Origin: a virus | DNA: 33,616 nt | Strand: one strand, 5' to 3' | IMG/VR virus record: IMGVR_UViG_3300009079_000064 | Span: 1-33,616 of that record | In this document: one piece after another, positions 2,166 to 33,616 of the stretch | How positions within the stretch are numbered: position 1 is the first letter of the stretch | Layout: each line of letters begins with the position of its first letter | Position numbers and translations under genes: made by a program | Notes under the pieces: model-generated | Seen by the model: the letters and a program-made list of their open reading frames with translations, nothing else | What the model was told of the DNA's origin: nothing | Databases searched by the model: none

Positions 2166-3048
2166 GTCTTTGCAAATCTAATGTTACGCAGTGGTGACCA
2201 CCCATAAACATTTTTGCATGCGGCAAATTAACGCCTATTGTTTCTATTCCATATTTATCAAATTTTTTTCTTAGAATGGTCTGATTAGAATCGCAGAATA
2301 TAGTATTTTCATCATAGCTTAAAACATTCATTCCTATCCAATTACTAGTCATATGATCCCAACCCTTCGGTTGAATCAAGTCTTCTTGTTTTATCCAAAT
2401 CTTATCCCAAGATTTCATAAAATCTGGTAACTGATATTCTTTAATTCTTTCTGAATTTAACATGACTAAACCATCTCTAAGAGGAACTATAGTACTATCT
2501 AGATGCATTCCCTGATATACTGCATTTAGTCGATGCACAATATATTCTGGTCCCAAATAATTTTCTAGCCAATCCGCTCCAGCTTCATTTCCAGAATAGC
2601 TTATTAGATATAAAATATCCTTTCCGCATCTAATTATATTGGCAGCATCAAATACTGCCGCTGGATCATCAACAGTTGTGACATTGTCTCCTAAAGCAGC
2701 GCGGATCGCTTTCCATTCAATTCGGCGATTTGGCCATACAGTAGGCGTAAGAATTACTTTATCGCCAATAACTAATGTGGTATCTCTAGGGCAATAACAT
2801 CCAAAACCGTCTTCTTTTACATAATCAATAGGCTTTGGTCTAATAACCTCTACTCCTAATTTTTCTAATTCAGCTTGAAATAAATTTAAAGCTTCTTGAG
2901 TTTCATGTATGGCGATTGGAGACGCAGGACCAATAGGTGCCTCATCCCAAGTAGAGTATTCTGGATCATTTTTTGGAAAATTAAAATTTTCGGCTGAACC
3001 AAGTATTACTCTTTTTAACCGTGACCATTCGTTATCGCTACGGATCAT
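2161..3048 (-). CDS. amidinotransferase (glycine amidinotransferase-like)
   Basis: A 295-residue protein of the amidinotransferase/arginine deiminase superfamily, whose enzymes form a covalent amidino intermediate on cysteine and move an amidino group from arginine to an amine. Seen here: an N-terminal WSRLKRVILG strand; CYCPRDTTLVIGDKVI near residues 85-100; the FDAANI acidic motif near 134-139; QGMHLDSTIVPL (catalytic His) near 180-191; and a C-terminal GGHHCVTLDL with the candidate nucleophilic Cys. All three catalytic positions (Asp, His, Cys) are present, so it should be active. I start it at 3048 because AGGAGATAAT immediately precedes that ATG; the upstream ATG at 3069 overlaps the site. 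It is leftward among rightward core genes, AT-rich and rich in ATA/AGA/TTA codons, which suggests separate acquisition. The acceptor amine is unknown; glycine is only one possibility. Confidence 0.82.
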   Translation of the reverse strand: MIRSDNEWSRLKRVILGSAENFNFPKNDPEYSTWDEAPIGPASPIAIHETQEALNLFQAELEKLGVEVIRPKPIDYVKEDGFGCYCPRDTTLVIGDKVILTPTVWPNRRIEWKAIRAALGDNVTTVDDPAAVFDAANIIRCGKDILYLISYSGNEAGADWLENYLGPEYIVHRLNAVYQGMHLDSTIVPLRDGLVMLNSERIKEYQLPDFMKSWDKIWIKQEDLIQPKGWDHMTSNWIGMNVLSYDENTIFCDSNQTILRKKFDKYGIETIGVNLPHAKMFMGGHHCVTLDLQRL

Positions 3049-3059
3049 ATTATCTCCTA

Positions 3060-3088
3060 TTTCCAACATATATATCTATGAATATAAT
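3060..3088 (+). promoter_or_regulatory. possible promoter for uvsW
   Basis: TATAAT at 3083-3088, 17 bases downstream of a poor -35 (TTTCCA, 3060-3065), and 16 bases before the uvsW ATG. The spacing matches the recurrent early promoter but the -35 does not, so it could be an activator-dependent (middle-type) promoter. The region is a divergent junction with the amidinotransferase. Confidence 0.35.
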
Positions 3089-3104
3089 TTAATAGAGTAT
3101 TGTT

Positions 3105-4607
3105 ATGGAAATCATTAAAGTTAAAAATAAAAACCACTCTTTTATGGAAATTACCTGCGATTATGGTATTGCCAATGAGCTTACTGATTTCTTTTCATTT
3201 TTTGTGCCTGGCTATAAATTTATGCCGGCGTACAAAAATAAAGTCTGGGACGGTAAGATCCGACTATTTAATATTCATAAAATGGAACTACCTGTTGGAT
3301 TATTTCCATTCTTAGCTGAATTCTCCAAACCTAGAAAATATACTATTGAAGTAGAACATAATAATTTTTATGGTCGACCGGATAGTCAAATAGATATTGA
3401 TCCAAATGAAATTAAAGCATTTGTTGATAGACTAGAGTTACAATCAAGAGGTAAACCAATTGAAATACGAGACTACCAATTTGACGCAGTTTGCGAAGGA
3501 CTCCACAGAAAAAGAGCAGTACTTATTTCACCAACGGGCTCTGGCAAGTCTCTTATCATCTACACACTCGTCCAAAGATATTTACTTTCTCTTAGGAAGG
3601 CAAACAGGAAAGTCTTGGTTATTGTACCAACGACTTCGCTGGTTGAGCAAATGTATAACGACTTCGCAGATTATGGAATGCCTGTCGAAGACTGCGTCCA
3701 CAGGATTTATTCTGGACGAGATAAAGAGACCGATAAAGAAATTATCATTTCAACCTGGCAGTCAATTTACAAACTGCCACCGAAATGGTTTGAACAATTC
3801 GGTGCTGTCATTGGTGACGAATGTCATGGCTTTAAATCAAAGTCTCTCACCACTATTATGGATAAATGCAAAGAAGCCGAATATCGTTGGGGAACAACAG
3901 GTACACTTGACGGTTCTCAAACCCATGAACTCGTATTACAAGGGCTTTTTGGGAAGATATATAATGTAACAACAACAAAGAAACTTCAAGATGAAGATAC
4001 ACTTGCTAAACTCAAGATCTCTATACTTTTACTCAAATATGATGAAGAGATCCGTCGAAATTGGGGTAAACAAGATTATCAAGCTGAACTGGATTTCATT
4101 GTTCGAAACGAGTCTCGTAATAAGCTCATTTCTAATCTCGCTTTGGATCTTGATGGCAATACTCTCGTACTATTTAATTTTGTAGAAAAACATGGTAAAC
4201 CTTTGTTTGAAATGATTCGAGACAAAGCCCATGAAAACAGAAAAATCTTTTTTGTATCTGGTGAAACCGCCACGAGTGACCGTGAAGCAATTCGTAAGAT
4301 CGTAGAAGGACAAAAGAATGCTATCATTGTTGCTAGTCTTGGCACTTTCTCCACTGGGATTAATATTAGGAATTTGCATAATATCGTATTTGCATCCCCA
4401 TCCAAGTCTCAAATCAGAGTTCTCCAATCAATTGGACGAGGACTCAGAAAATCAGACGACGGATCTATAGCACAACTTTACGATATTGCTGATGACTTAC
4501 ATTGGGGACATAGGAAGAATTACACATTAGAACACTCAGCAGAACGTGTTAAGATGTATGCTAAACAAGAATTTGACTACAAAATTTACGAGATAGATAT
4601 AAAGTAA
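3105..4607 (+). CDS. uvsW: UvsW RNA-DNA/DNA helicase
   Basis: A 500-residue superfamily 2 helicase matching T4 UvsW (503 residues) end to end. UvsW unwinds R-loops at origins, regresses forks and drives the switch to recombination-dependent replication. Seen here: the N-terminal DNA-binding domain with DFFSFFVPGYKF and VWDGKIRLFN near 28-55; Walker A SPTGSGKS near 142-149 (PTSAGKS in T4); the Walker B box GDECHGF; motif III-like TTGTLDG; and C-terminal VASLGTFSTGINIRNL and QSIGRGLRKSD (motif VI). The ATG at 3105 gives the N terminus expected from T4. The ribosome-binding site is weak, as is common in AT-rich early leaders. The 169-residue ORF in another frame at 3460-3969 is a shadow. Confidence 0.95.
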   Translation: MEIIKVKNKNHSFMEITCDYGIANELTDFFSFFVPGYKFMPAYKNKVWDGKIRLFNIHKMELPVGLFPFLAEFSKPRKYTIEVEHNNFYGRPDSQIDIDPNEIKAFVDRLELQSRGKPIEIRDYQFDAVCEGLHRKRAVLISPTGSGKSLIIYTLVQRYLLSLRKANRKVLVIVPTTSLVEQMYNDFADYGMPVEDCVHRIYSGRDKETDKEIIISTWQSIYKLPPKWFEQFGAVIGDECHGFKSKSLTTIMDKCKEAEYRWGTTGTLDGSQTHELVLQGLFGKIYNVTTTKKLQDEDTLAKLKISILLLKYDEEIRRNWGKQDYQAELDFIVRNESRNKLISNLALDLDGNTLVLFNFVEKHGKPLFEMIRDKAHENRKIFFVSGETATSDREAIRKIVEGQKNAIIVASLGTFSTGINIRNLHNIVFASPSKSQIRVLQSIGRGLRKSDDGSIAQLYDIADDLHWGHRKNYTLEHSAERVKMYAKQEFDYKIYEIDIK

Positions 4608-32385: not shown

Positions 32386-32919
32386 ATGAAACTATTGATT
32401 GTCGGACATGCTCGACACGGTAAAGATACTGTAGCAGAATACTTTGAATCAAAATACGGATTGCAGTTTGCATCTTCAAGTATGCATAATGCAGAGCATA
32501 CTGTATTTCCTGTATTGGCACCACTATATGGTTATAAGACTGTACAAGAATGTTTTGAAGATCGTGGTAACCATAGATCAGAATGGTATGATCTTATTGC
32601 TGCACGCTGTAAAGACGATCCTGCTACCATTGGCCGTGAGATCTTTGAGATTTCTGACATCTATGCAGGTCTTCGTAATAAACGTGAATTCCATGGTATC
32701 AAGAATGCTGGCTTGATTGATTGTGCTATTTGGGTAGATCGCTCAGACCATCTTCCACCTGAAGATAAGTCGTCTATGAGTCTAGAACCATGGATGACTG
32801 ATTATGTTATTGATAATAATGGCACTCTAGAACAATTGTATCAAGCCATTGATGCTTTGTATTACACTCTAGCCTATCGTTTTGACGGCTTAGGTCATGA
32901 ATATGAAATGTATCCTTAA
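32386..32919 (+). CDS. deoxynucleoside-monophosphate-kinase-like protein
   Basis: A 177-residue P-loop protein. LLIVGHARHGKDTVAEYF near residues 3-20 is a Walker A of the GxxxxGKDT type used by T4 gene 1 dNMP kinase and related enzymes. WMTDYVIDNNGTLEQLYQAIDAL near 144-166 matches the closing strand-helix of that kinase family (D-x-V-I-x-N-x-G-T-x-E-x-L). T4 gp1 phosphorylates dTMP, dGMP and hydroxymethyl-dCMP, which fits the gp42 in this window. The similarity is to the fold; its exact substrate is not shown. It is two bases after the hydrolase gene and overlaps the coiled-coil gene. Confidence 0.75.
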   Translation: MKLLIVGHARHGKDTVAEYFESKYGLQFASSSMHNAEHTVFPVLAPLYGYKTVQECFEDRGNHRSEWYDLIAARCKDDPATIGREIFEISDIYAGLRNKREFHGIKNAGLIDCAIWVDRSDHLPPEDKSSMSLEPWMTDYVIDNNGTLEQLYQAIDALYYTLAYRFDGLGHEYEMYP

Positions 32920-33151: not shown

Positions 33152-33187
33152 TTTAAAAGTCACAGTATTAAAACTATAATATAGGGG

Positions 33188-33221
33188 TTTACTTAATCCA
33201 TCCTTTATGTTAATATATAAC
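33188..33221 (+). promoter_or_regulatory. promoter of the tmRNA gene
   Basis: TTTACT (33188-33193), a 17-base spacer and TAATAT (33211-33216); a second -10 choice, TATAAC (33216-33221), pairs with TTAATC. Either would start transcription at about 33222-33228, the 5' end of the acceptor half. It resembles the other early promoters but with a poorer -10. Confidence 0.5.
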
Positions 33222-33224
33222 CTG

Positions 33225-33285
33225 TAAACGTTGAAGCAACGTGGACACATTCTGGACCTGGGGGCGGTACCCAGCGACTCCACCA
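33225..33285 (+). ncRNA. ssrA: tmRNA acceptor piece (permuted, two-piece)
   Basis: The sequence ends in a tRNA-like 3' half: T-stem CTGGG (33258-33262), a 7-base loop GGCGGTA, T-stem CCCAG (33270-33274), acceptor strand CGACTCC (33275-33281), then ACCA. CGACTCC pairs over seven positions with GGGGTCG at 33441-33447, with a G-T at position 3, the G3-U70 pair that marks alanine charging. Upstream, CACA (33246-33249) and CTG (33252-33254) pair with TGTG and CAG of the coding piece to make helix P2. ACGTTG-AAG-CAACGT (33228-33242) forms a hairpin at the 5' end. Placing the 3' half upstream of the 5' half is the permuted order of two-piece tmRNA. The T-loop departs from the TTCGANNC consensus. The 5' boundary is approximate. 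Confidence 0.88.
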
Positions 33286-33297
33286 TAAGGATACACA

Positions 33298-33495
33298 ATG
33301 AAACAATATTCAAAAGAATATTTAGAGTTTGAACTGAAACACACTAAAGAGTTGGTAGAACTTCATCATAACACAAGAGATGAAGAATTGAGACTTCAAA
33401 TTTTAGAAGTTAGAAAAACTCTTGAGCGTATCTTTTTGATGGGGTCGAAATTAGGATCGACAGGTGTGAAAGTGAAAGTGGAGTTTACCGGATGA
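33298..33495 (+). CDS. small helical protein encoded between the tmRNA halves
   Basis: A 65-residue frame with an ATG at 33298 and a well-spaced AAGGA site (33287-33291) that begins two bases after the acceptor CCA. Residues 1-47 form a convincing charged helix pair (KEYLEFELKHTKELVELHH, then EELRLQILEVRKTLERI). The last 17 residues are encoded by the first 55 bases of the tmRNA coding piece (from 33441), where the sequence is constrained by RNA structure. It may be a genuine gene lodged in the intervening segment, perhaps with its useful part ending near residue 48. Cleavage of the tmRNA precursor would destroy its mRNA, so expression and tmRNA maturation would compete. Confidence 0.55.
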   Translation: MKQYSKEYLEFELKHTKELVELHHNTRDEELRLQILEVRKTLERIFLMGSKLGSTGVKVKVEFTG

Positions 33496-33616
33496 CTGCG
33501 TTATTGGTCAATTAAACTAAATGCAAATGAAAATTTCGCACCTACAGGTTACGCCCTAGCGGCATAATGCTGGTGGGTATGAGCACCACCTAGAAACAGA
33601 ACGGACTCGCAACAAC
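33441..33616 (+). ncRNA. ssrA: tmRNA coding piece with ANENFAPTGYALAA tag (cut by window edge)
   Basis: GGGGTCG (33441-33447) opens the 5' acceptor strand, followed by the tmRNA-typical GGATCGAC element (33454-33461; E. coli has GGATTCGAC) and the P2 strand CAG-G-TGTG (33461-33468). TGAC/GTCA (33493-33496 with 33507-33510) may belong to pseudoknot 1. After the single-stranded AAACTAAAT stretch, the resume codon GCA at 33523 begins 14 codons for ANENFAPTGYALAA, ending at TAA (33565-33567). The tag has the usual A-N-x-N start and ALAA end that targets proteins to ClpXP. A GGTGG/CCACC stem (near 33571-33590) follows the stop. The gene continues past the right edge. tmRNA rescues stalled ribosomes with SmpB; no smpB is visible here. 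Confidence 0.92.

Follow-up and report, generated by a model that had tools for sequence, protein, structure and literature searches.

The window, a viral DNA stretch of 33,616 nucleotides analysed at its full length, ends in a two-piece tmRNA gene whose intervening sequence (IVS) carries a small open reading frame (ORF). Our best reading, drawn from comparisons among phage sequences, is that this is probably a working phage tmRNA using host SmpB and, jointly, that its gene is a slot where phages keep and swap small genes, with the spacer ORF translated from the precursor RNA. Phage-encoded two-piece tmRNA is already known; the use of its IVS as an exchangeable gene slot looks new.

A permuted tmRNA gene of a T4-like phage

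The preliminary description of this DNA had proposed a permuted two-piece tmRNA here, and both covariance models and ARAGORN in permuted mode bear it out. ARAGORN reported a permuted tmRNA (tmRNA*) at 33191..33658 with the tag ANENFAPTGYALAA, the reported end lying past the contig end. Two Rfam models matched at full length and above their cut-offs: RF04321 (tmRNA_permuted) at 33224-33567 with 97.8 bits and E 4.6e-18 (cut-off, 47 bits), and RF01849 (alpha_tmRNA) at 33185-33611 with 93.4 bits and E 2.1e-24, covering model positions 1-355 (cut-off, 50 bits). Taking the ARAGORN start and the RF01849 end, the gene spans 33191-33611 and is permuted and of the alphaproteobacterial type. Its features are as follows.

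33152..33180, + strand: promoter-like TTTAAA-17-TATAAT just 5' of the tmRNA, on weak evidence
33224..33285, + strand: acceptor piece (T-arm, acceptor 3' strand, CCA) from RF04321 and RF01849, with the ARAGORN start at 33191; its 5' end is a model boundary and not a mapped end
33286..33440, + strand: IVS of 155 nt, expected to be removed, delimited by the CCA and the paired GGGG strand and by the fold
33287..33291, + strand: SD (Shine-Dalgarno)-like AAGGA, read from the sequence and doubling as 5' strand of the IVS stem
33298..33495, + strand: IVS ORF from ATG 33298, 65 aa if read through the precursor, from pN/pS and relatives
33441..33611, + strand: coding piece, running from the acceptor 5' strand through the upstream region and the tag to the last pseudoknot region, from RF01849 to the model end
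33523..33567, + strand: tag frame ANENFAPTGYALAA with stop TAA, from ARAGORN

The acceptor 3' strand CGACTCC (33275-33281) is followed by discriminator A (33282) and CCA (33283-33285), and pairs with the 5' strand GGGGTCG (33441-33447) over seven positions including G3-U70. With both G3-U70 and an encoded CCA present, the acceptor is of the alanine type. The tag frame is open and short and has a hydrophobic end, ALAA, before the stop. These elements had been read correctly from the letters, as had the tag coordinates. The completeness of the downstream flank, on which the proposal had been made to depend, stands in part: the coding piece is complete inside the window (the RF01849 match ends at 33611) and the last pseudoknot region is present (33572-33611), with a second stem that by eye has only about 3 to 4 good pairs here, a stem that is clear and covaries well in many relatives. 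Because other contigs of this phage carry an identical tag and run past the window end, one of them 114 kb long, the gene is not a contig-end artefact. As for the promoter-like site, its counterpart in the same phage (L022, 5767-5795) has 10 of 12 consensus matches, and that L022 region holds 8 such sites against 5.6 expected by chance.

The T4-like setting that had been suggested also holds, since the replication genes that the window carries for this marine phage are T4-like (DNA polymerase, UvsX-like recombinase, SbcCD-like subunits, and DnaB-like helicase) and a T4-type gp23 capsid gene lies on the 114-kb contig of the same phage. ThyX is encoded as well, and the closest DNA polymerase in the phage collection, from Phage C48C1, is 55% identical. 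Recent capture of the tmRNA from an alphaproteobacterial host is not supported: the best identity among sampled bacterial tmRNAs is ~77% for the acceptor piece and ~67% for the coding piece, compared to 87 to 100% for the pieces of related phages. Nor is there support for the view of the preliminary description that a permuted tmRNA in such a phage is striking in itself. A published survey of 18,146 phage genomes contains 53 two-piece cases, 50 of them marine or aquatic (PMC9004378), and the T-arm pattern alone occurs in at least 119 viral stretches.

Further genes, and one RNA in another phage, were also observed. Among the replication genes, 12662-13498 matches a class I/II aminotransferase (PF00155, E 1.2e-06). 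The gene 5' of the tmRNA (32386-32919) has a weak match, below cut-off, to deoxynucleotide monophosphate kinase (PF21448), and its viral relatives have a permuted tmRNA after them in many instances and not in many others. On the 3' side, as seen in the same phage (L022, 6253-9372), lies a series of small ORFs that begin like signal peptides and have no Pfam match; in phage Melnitz, curli pore genes are reported downstream of thyX and ssrA (PMC9004378). In Bacteriophage DSS3_MAL1, recovered with Ruegeria-phage relatives, a GOLLD RNA (RF02032; L215, 403-866) overlaps a tRNA-Arg and lies directly 5' of a permuted tmRNA.

Small ORFs in the spacers of phage tmRNAs

Between the CCA and the GGGG strand lies the 155-nt IVS with its ORF from 33298, which the preliminary description had missed. 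The IVS ends pair with each other (AAGGATAC with GTATCTTT), and AAGGA at 33287-33291 has a mean pairing probability of 0.91 in the predicted fold of the isolated IVS. The ORF is SD led, starts just after the CCA, and runs for 47 codons within the IVS with no stop inside it. Searches of PHROGs and Pfam gave no known domain worth naming for it; for two other IVS-ORF families, the PHROG matches are weak (E 0.006 and 0.019). A structure model made without an alignment predicts two helices for the window protein, with moderate confidence (mean pLDDT, 69.8). A simple hydropathy test detected no transmembrane-like stretch in it, and detected one in 10 of 20 representative IVS ORFs. By tblastn, no convincing relatives in deposited phages were found for the window ORF or for the W, MFWHKH, and MYYVMN families. 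The window family is known from only three tmRNA contexts, one of them retrieved by protein similarity.

To what extent are such ORFs a property of phage spacers? In an unbiased sample, picked by T-arm only and not by IVS, 61 unique viral spacers had a median length of 80 nt, 22 of them being at least 90 nt long. Of these 22, 6 hold an SD-led ORF that takes up 85% or more of the IVS, against 0.28 expected from shuffles, and most of the 61 IVSs have no such ORF. The same T-arm pattern in bacterial genomes yielded 101 unique spacers; their median length was 29 nt, and none (0/101) reached 90 nt or held such an ORF. When the layout CCA-NAAGG-start-...-TTTTGAT-GGG was searched for, all 52 unique viral spacers were open, compared to 12.8 expected, and they fall into 18 protein families; this set includes loci retrieved by similarity to two ORFs, and the family count therefore matters more than the sequence count. 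The IVS-ORF pattern was found in 23 viral stretches (42 with the pattern for longer ORFs) and in none of the genomes of 84,980 bacterial and archaeal species in a pattern scan, which is the only coverage of beta- and cyanobacterial-type bacterial spacers. Long IVSs are uncommon in 142 alphaproteobacterial genomes (133 with a match), and the eight longest, when retrieved, lacked the CCA-NAAGG layout. tRNA genes as a general rule for IVS content were considered and rejected: the T-loop motif occurs in 2 of 74 unique viral IVSs of at least 50 nt (0.2 expected), and ARAGORN detected no tRNA in these 74.

Layout and proposed expression of the spacer ORFs

The spacer ORFs of the layout set begin within about 24 nt of the CCA. 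In predicted folds, the SD is mostly paired within the closing stem of the spacer, with AAGG-type spacers showing the tightest pairing, and in many families the 3' strand of this stem (TTTTTGAT) also encodes the final Phe codons and the stop. A stop lies inside the IVS in 13 of 18 families and is absent in the window family and four others; the frame leaves the IVS without a stop in the window, in L209, in the W and MDFHW families, and in one further case.

How might such an ORF be expressed? In the scheme that we propose, one precursor RNA would be made, folding so that the two acceptor halves pair and the IVS stem forms. RNase P of the host would cut before 33441, and the tRNA 3' machinery of the host would trim to the CCA at 33285, leaving a two-piece RNA to be used by host alanyl-tRNA synthetase and SmpB. 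The ribosome would bind AAGGA at 33287-33291 and translate the ORF before or during processing, and translation would end when the precursor folds and gets cut. Because AAGGA becomes a stem strand once the 3' end of the IVS has been made, translation would most likely take place on nascent or unprocessed RNA. Against the slot with precursor translation, folding of the precursor is predicted to leave the SD paired, and most sampled IVSs have no such ORF.

The main alternative to translation of the precursor is that the excised IVS is itself the messenger, a short RNA with a 5' SD and often a 3' stop codon. The start codons so close to the CCA and the stops inside the IVS in 13 of 18 families fit this idea, which the window family and the four others lacking a stop do not. 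In a free IVS the stem would still hide the SD, according to the predicted fold, and a short RNA lacking protected ends would likely be short-lived, leaving this alternative plausible but clearly the less probable one.

For the families lacking a stop, excision of the spacer would create a nonstop message beside the very tmRNA that handles messages of this kind. We consider it unlikely, though worth stating by analogy, that one phage gene thereby contains a self-reporting switch of the arfA kind. The nonstop mRNA of arfA is described as regulated by trans-translation (PMC10107115), and the window ORF, if excised without a stop, could be controlled by trans-translation in a similar way. The analogy is one of logic alone; no kinship is claimed, and 13 of the 18 IVS-ORF families have their stop inside the IVS. 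If the idea were true, the small protein would be tagged and removed as long as trans-translation works, accumulating only under saturation or blockage of ribosome rescue.

Selection on the spacer ORFs

An ordinary phage permuted tmRNA, with an IVS that is spacer plus processing stem, could contain an ORF by accident of length or RNA structure. All IVSs need pairing ends, to which the AAGG...TTTTTGAT ends belong, and many phage IVSs are devoid of an ORF. However, substitution patterns in several unrelated families show codon-level selection in the ORF frame only. Between the window and its relative in L209, there are 7 synonymous and 5 nonsynonymous changes and no indels, giving a pN/pS of 0.16 in the ORF frame and 0.57 and 1.29 in the other frames; these 12 changes are few, and L209 was retrieved by protein similarity, which slightly favors a low value. 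Families retrieved by DNA pattern alone, which are free of this bias, give in-frame values of 0.05 (MDFHW), 0.17 (MSNLL), 0.22 (MVNG), and 0.29 (MEWHW), and the MYYVM family, reached via the T-arm pattern, gives 0.11; in all five, the other frames have values of at least 0.84 or zero synonymous changes. The W family, also retrieved by DNA pattern, has 0.32 in frame compared to 0.86 and 0.84. Low values, from 0.05 to 0.36, are seen across several families in the ORF frame only, and families with one or two changes in total are uninformative. As judged from these substitutions, families with enough variation show purifying selection at the codon level, and the IVS ORF is shown to evolve like a protein gene.

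The W protein (MFENWHWVYMWGILVVVNYMFWIVKSLF...) is found both in tmRNA spacers and as an ordinary ORF with its own stop. The latter lies mostly just 5' of a tmRNA, and in several such loci the spacer of that tmRNA has other content. This is strong evidence that spacer ORFs can be genuine genes rather than side effects of RNA structure. With a homologue outside the IVS and with ORFs open far more often than in shuffles, an accidental origin appears improbable. The stand-alone W gene, for a small membrane protein, was seen in L413, L415, L419, L421, and L428-L431 near position 1501 (52 in L431), directly 5' of the acceptor piece wherever the tmRNA was checked. The tmRNA IVSs of L419 and L421 contain a different, GTG-start ORF; L440, the phage contig of L419, has a 376-nt IVS, among the longest here, made up of a 62-aa GTG-start ORF plus ~180 nt.

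Exchange of spacers between phages

Two comparisons show opposite patterns for the phage and for its spacer. With the phage of L023, the window shares 99% identity in DNA polymerase, 94% in ThyX, and 100%/94% in the mature tmRNA pieces, whereas the IVSs are 43% identical, which equals the shuffled baseline (42%). With the phage of L209, a 194,645-base contig with the tag ANTNAAPKALALAA, the values are 48%, 64%, and 80%/72%, respectively, whereas the IVSs are 91% identical and the window ORF sits in the spacer of L209's own tmRNA. Since DNA polymerase and ThyX identities run opposite to IVS identities, simple descent of the spacer does not account for the data. The acceptor pieces of L023 and L025 are identical to that of the window over 60 nt and their coding pieces are 94% and 87% identical, and their spacers of 98 and 126 nt hold two other, unrelated ORFs, each SD led at the same place. 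These alignments show that the IVS has been exchanged independently of the surrounding tmRNA and of the phage. Matches to L211-L213 run only through the tmRNA coding part.

In a rival view, the tmRNA has decayed into a passenger or acts as a decoy by titrating the SmpB of the host, and the small gene alone matters. No SmpB gene was found in any of 13 related phage contigs, and host SmpB is assumed in our preferred reading for this reason; the absence would also suit a decoy. A tmRNA-like piece of phage DS6A inhibits tmRNA (PMC11915505; PMC4131195), and the last pseudoknot stem looks weak in the window. The full-length model matches, the intact acceptor with G3-U70 and CCA, and the open tag ending ALAA argue against decay, as does the retention of one tag, ANENFAPTGYALAA, in the phages of L022, L023, and L025, the sister phages with swapped IVSs included. 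We therefore regard a passenger or decoy as doubtful.

It is very improbable that the mixed arrangements are metagenome assembly errors: a window-type cassette does lie in a broken, duplicated tmRNA array in L208, a possible misjoin, but the window IVS recurs in several contigs of up to 114 kb, a diverged copy lies within the 194,645-base contig of L209, and the isolated phage Melnitz, whose tmRNA is identical in four genomes, also has an SD-led IVS ORF. The L208 tandem array (2820-3640) consists of a broken tmRNA acceptor, a tRNA-like IVS, the window-type IVS cassette, and an intact tmRNA with the tag ANANKAPEMALAA, and its flanks look duplicated, as from recombination or an assembly error. 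Recombination of cassettes through the conserved acceptor sequences would be expected to produce such an array; the alternative is a faulty assembly.

Relation to known systems and implications

The closest cellular counterpart is the two-piece tmRNA of Alphaproteobacteria (RF01849/RF04321), which has the same order of pieces, the G3-U70 acceptor pairing, an encoded CCA, and a tag ending LAA. The window tmRNA differs by its 155-nt IVS with a protein ORF, compared to the bacterial median of 29 nt, and is shortened after the tag relative to the model. Among phages, the Methylophilales phage Melnitz is likewise an aquatic T4-like phage with an alphaproteobacterial-type permuted ssrA and thyX nearby (PMC9004378). 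In its genome (L214, MZ577097.1), the tmRNA at 1943-2395 has a 142-nt IVS with an SD-led ORF (MFKWLSKTRLVVITRDYFRERNRKADAKIPKYLSGTRSVYD...), over which no CDS is annotated in that record. The predicted IVS peptide (MFKWLSKTRLVVITRDYF...) and the tag (ANDNYVPVDYALAA) differ from those of the window, and the coding piece starts GGGGGCG. The glutamine riboswitch RF01739 is found in Melnitz and not in the window or L022.

Extra genetic content inside tmRNA genes, in a segment that the mature RNA lacks, has been described before as a tRNA-Ala gene in the IVS of a permuted tmRNA and as group I introns in other tmRNA genes (PMC11915505). Those cases involve a tRNA gene or a T-loop intron, sometimes with a homing endonuclease, whereas many unrelated small protein genes are found here. 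We found no report of ORFs in a tmRNA IVS in the open-licence literature, although priority is not certain; in the searchable papers, the spacer figures only as a stretch missing from the mature RNA, while here it would be a gene slot.

One arrangement is common to these unrelated small ORFs: the SD forms the 5' strand of the processing stem, whose 3' strand often consists of the final Phe codons and the stop. The gene slot may help to explain the greater length of phage spacers compared to bacterial ones, and it brings in a group of small phage proteins that had been overlooked, about half of them with a transmembrane-like stretch. Since phage Melnitz has such an ORF, the proposal is testable in an isolate, and the spacer genes may bear on why phages keep a tmRNA at all.
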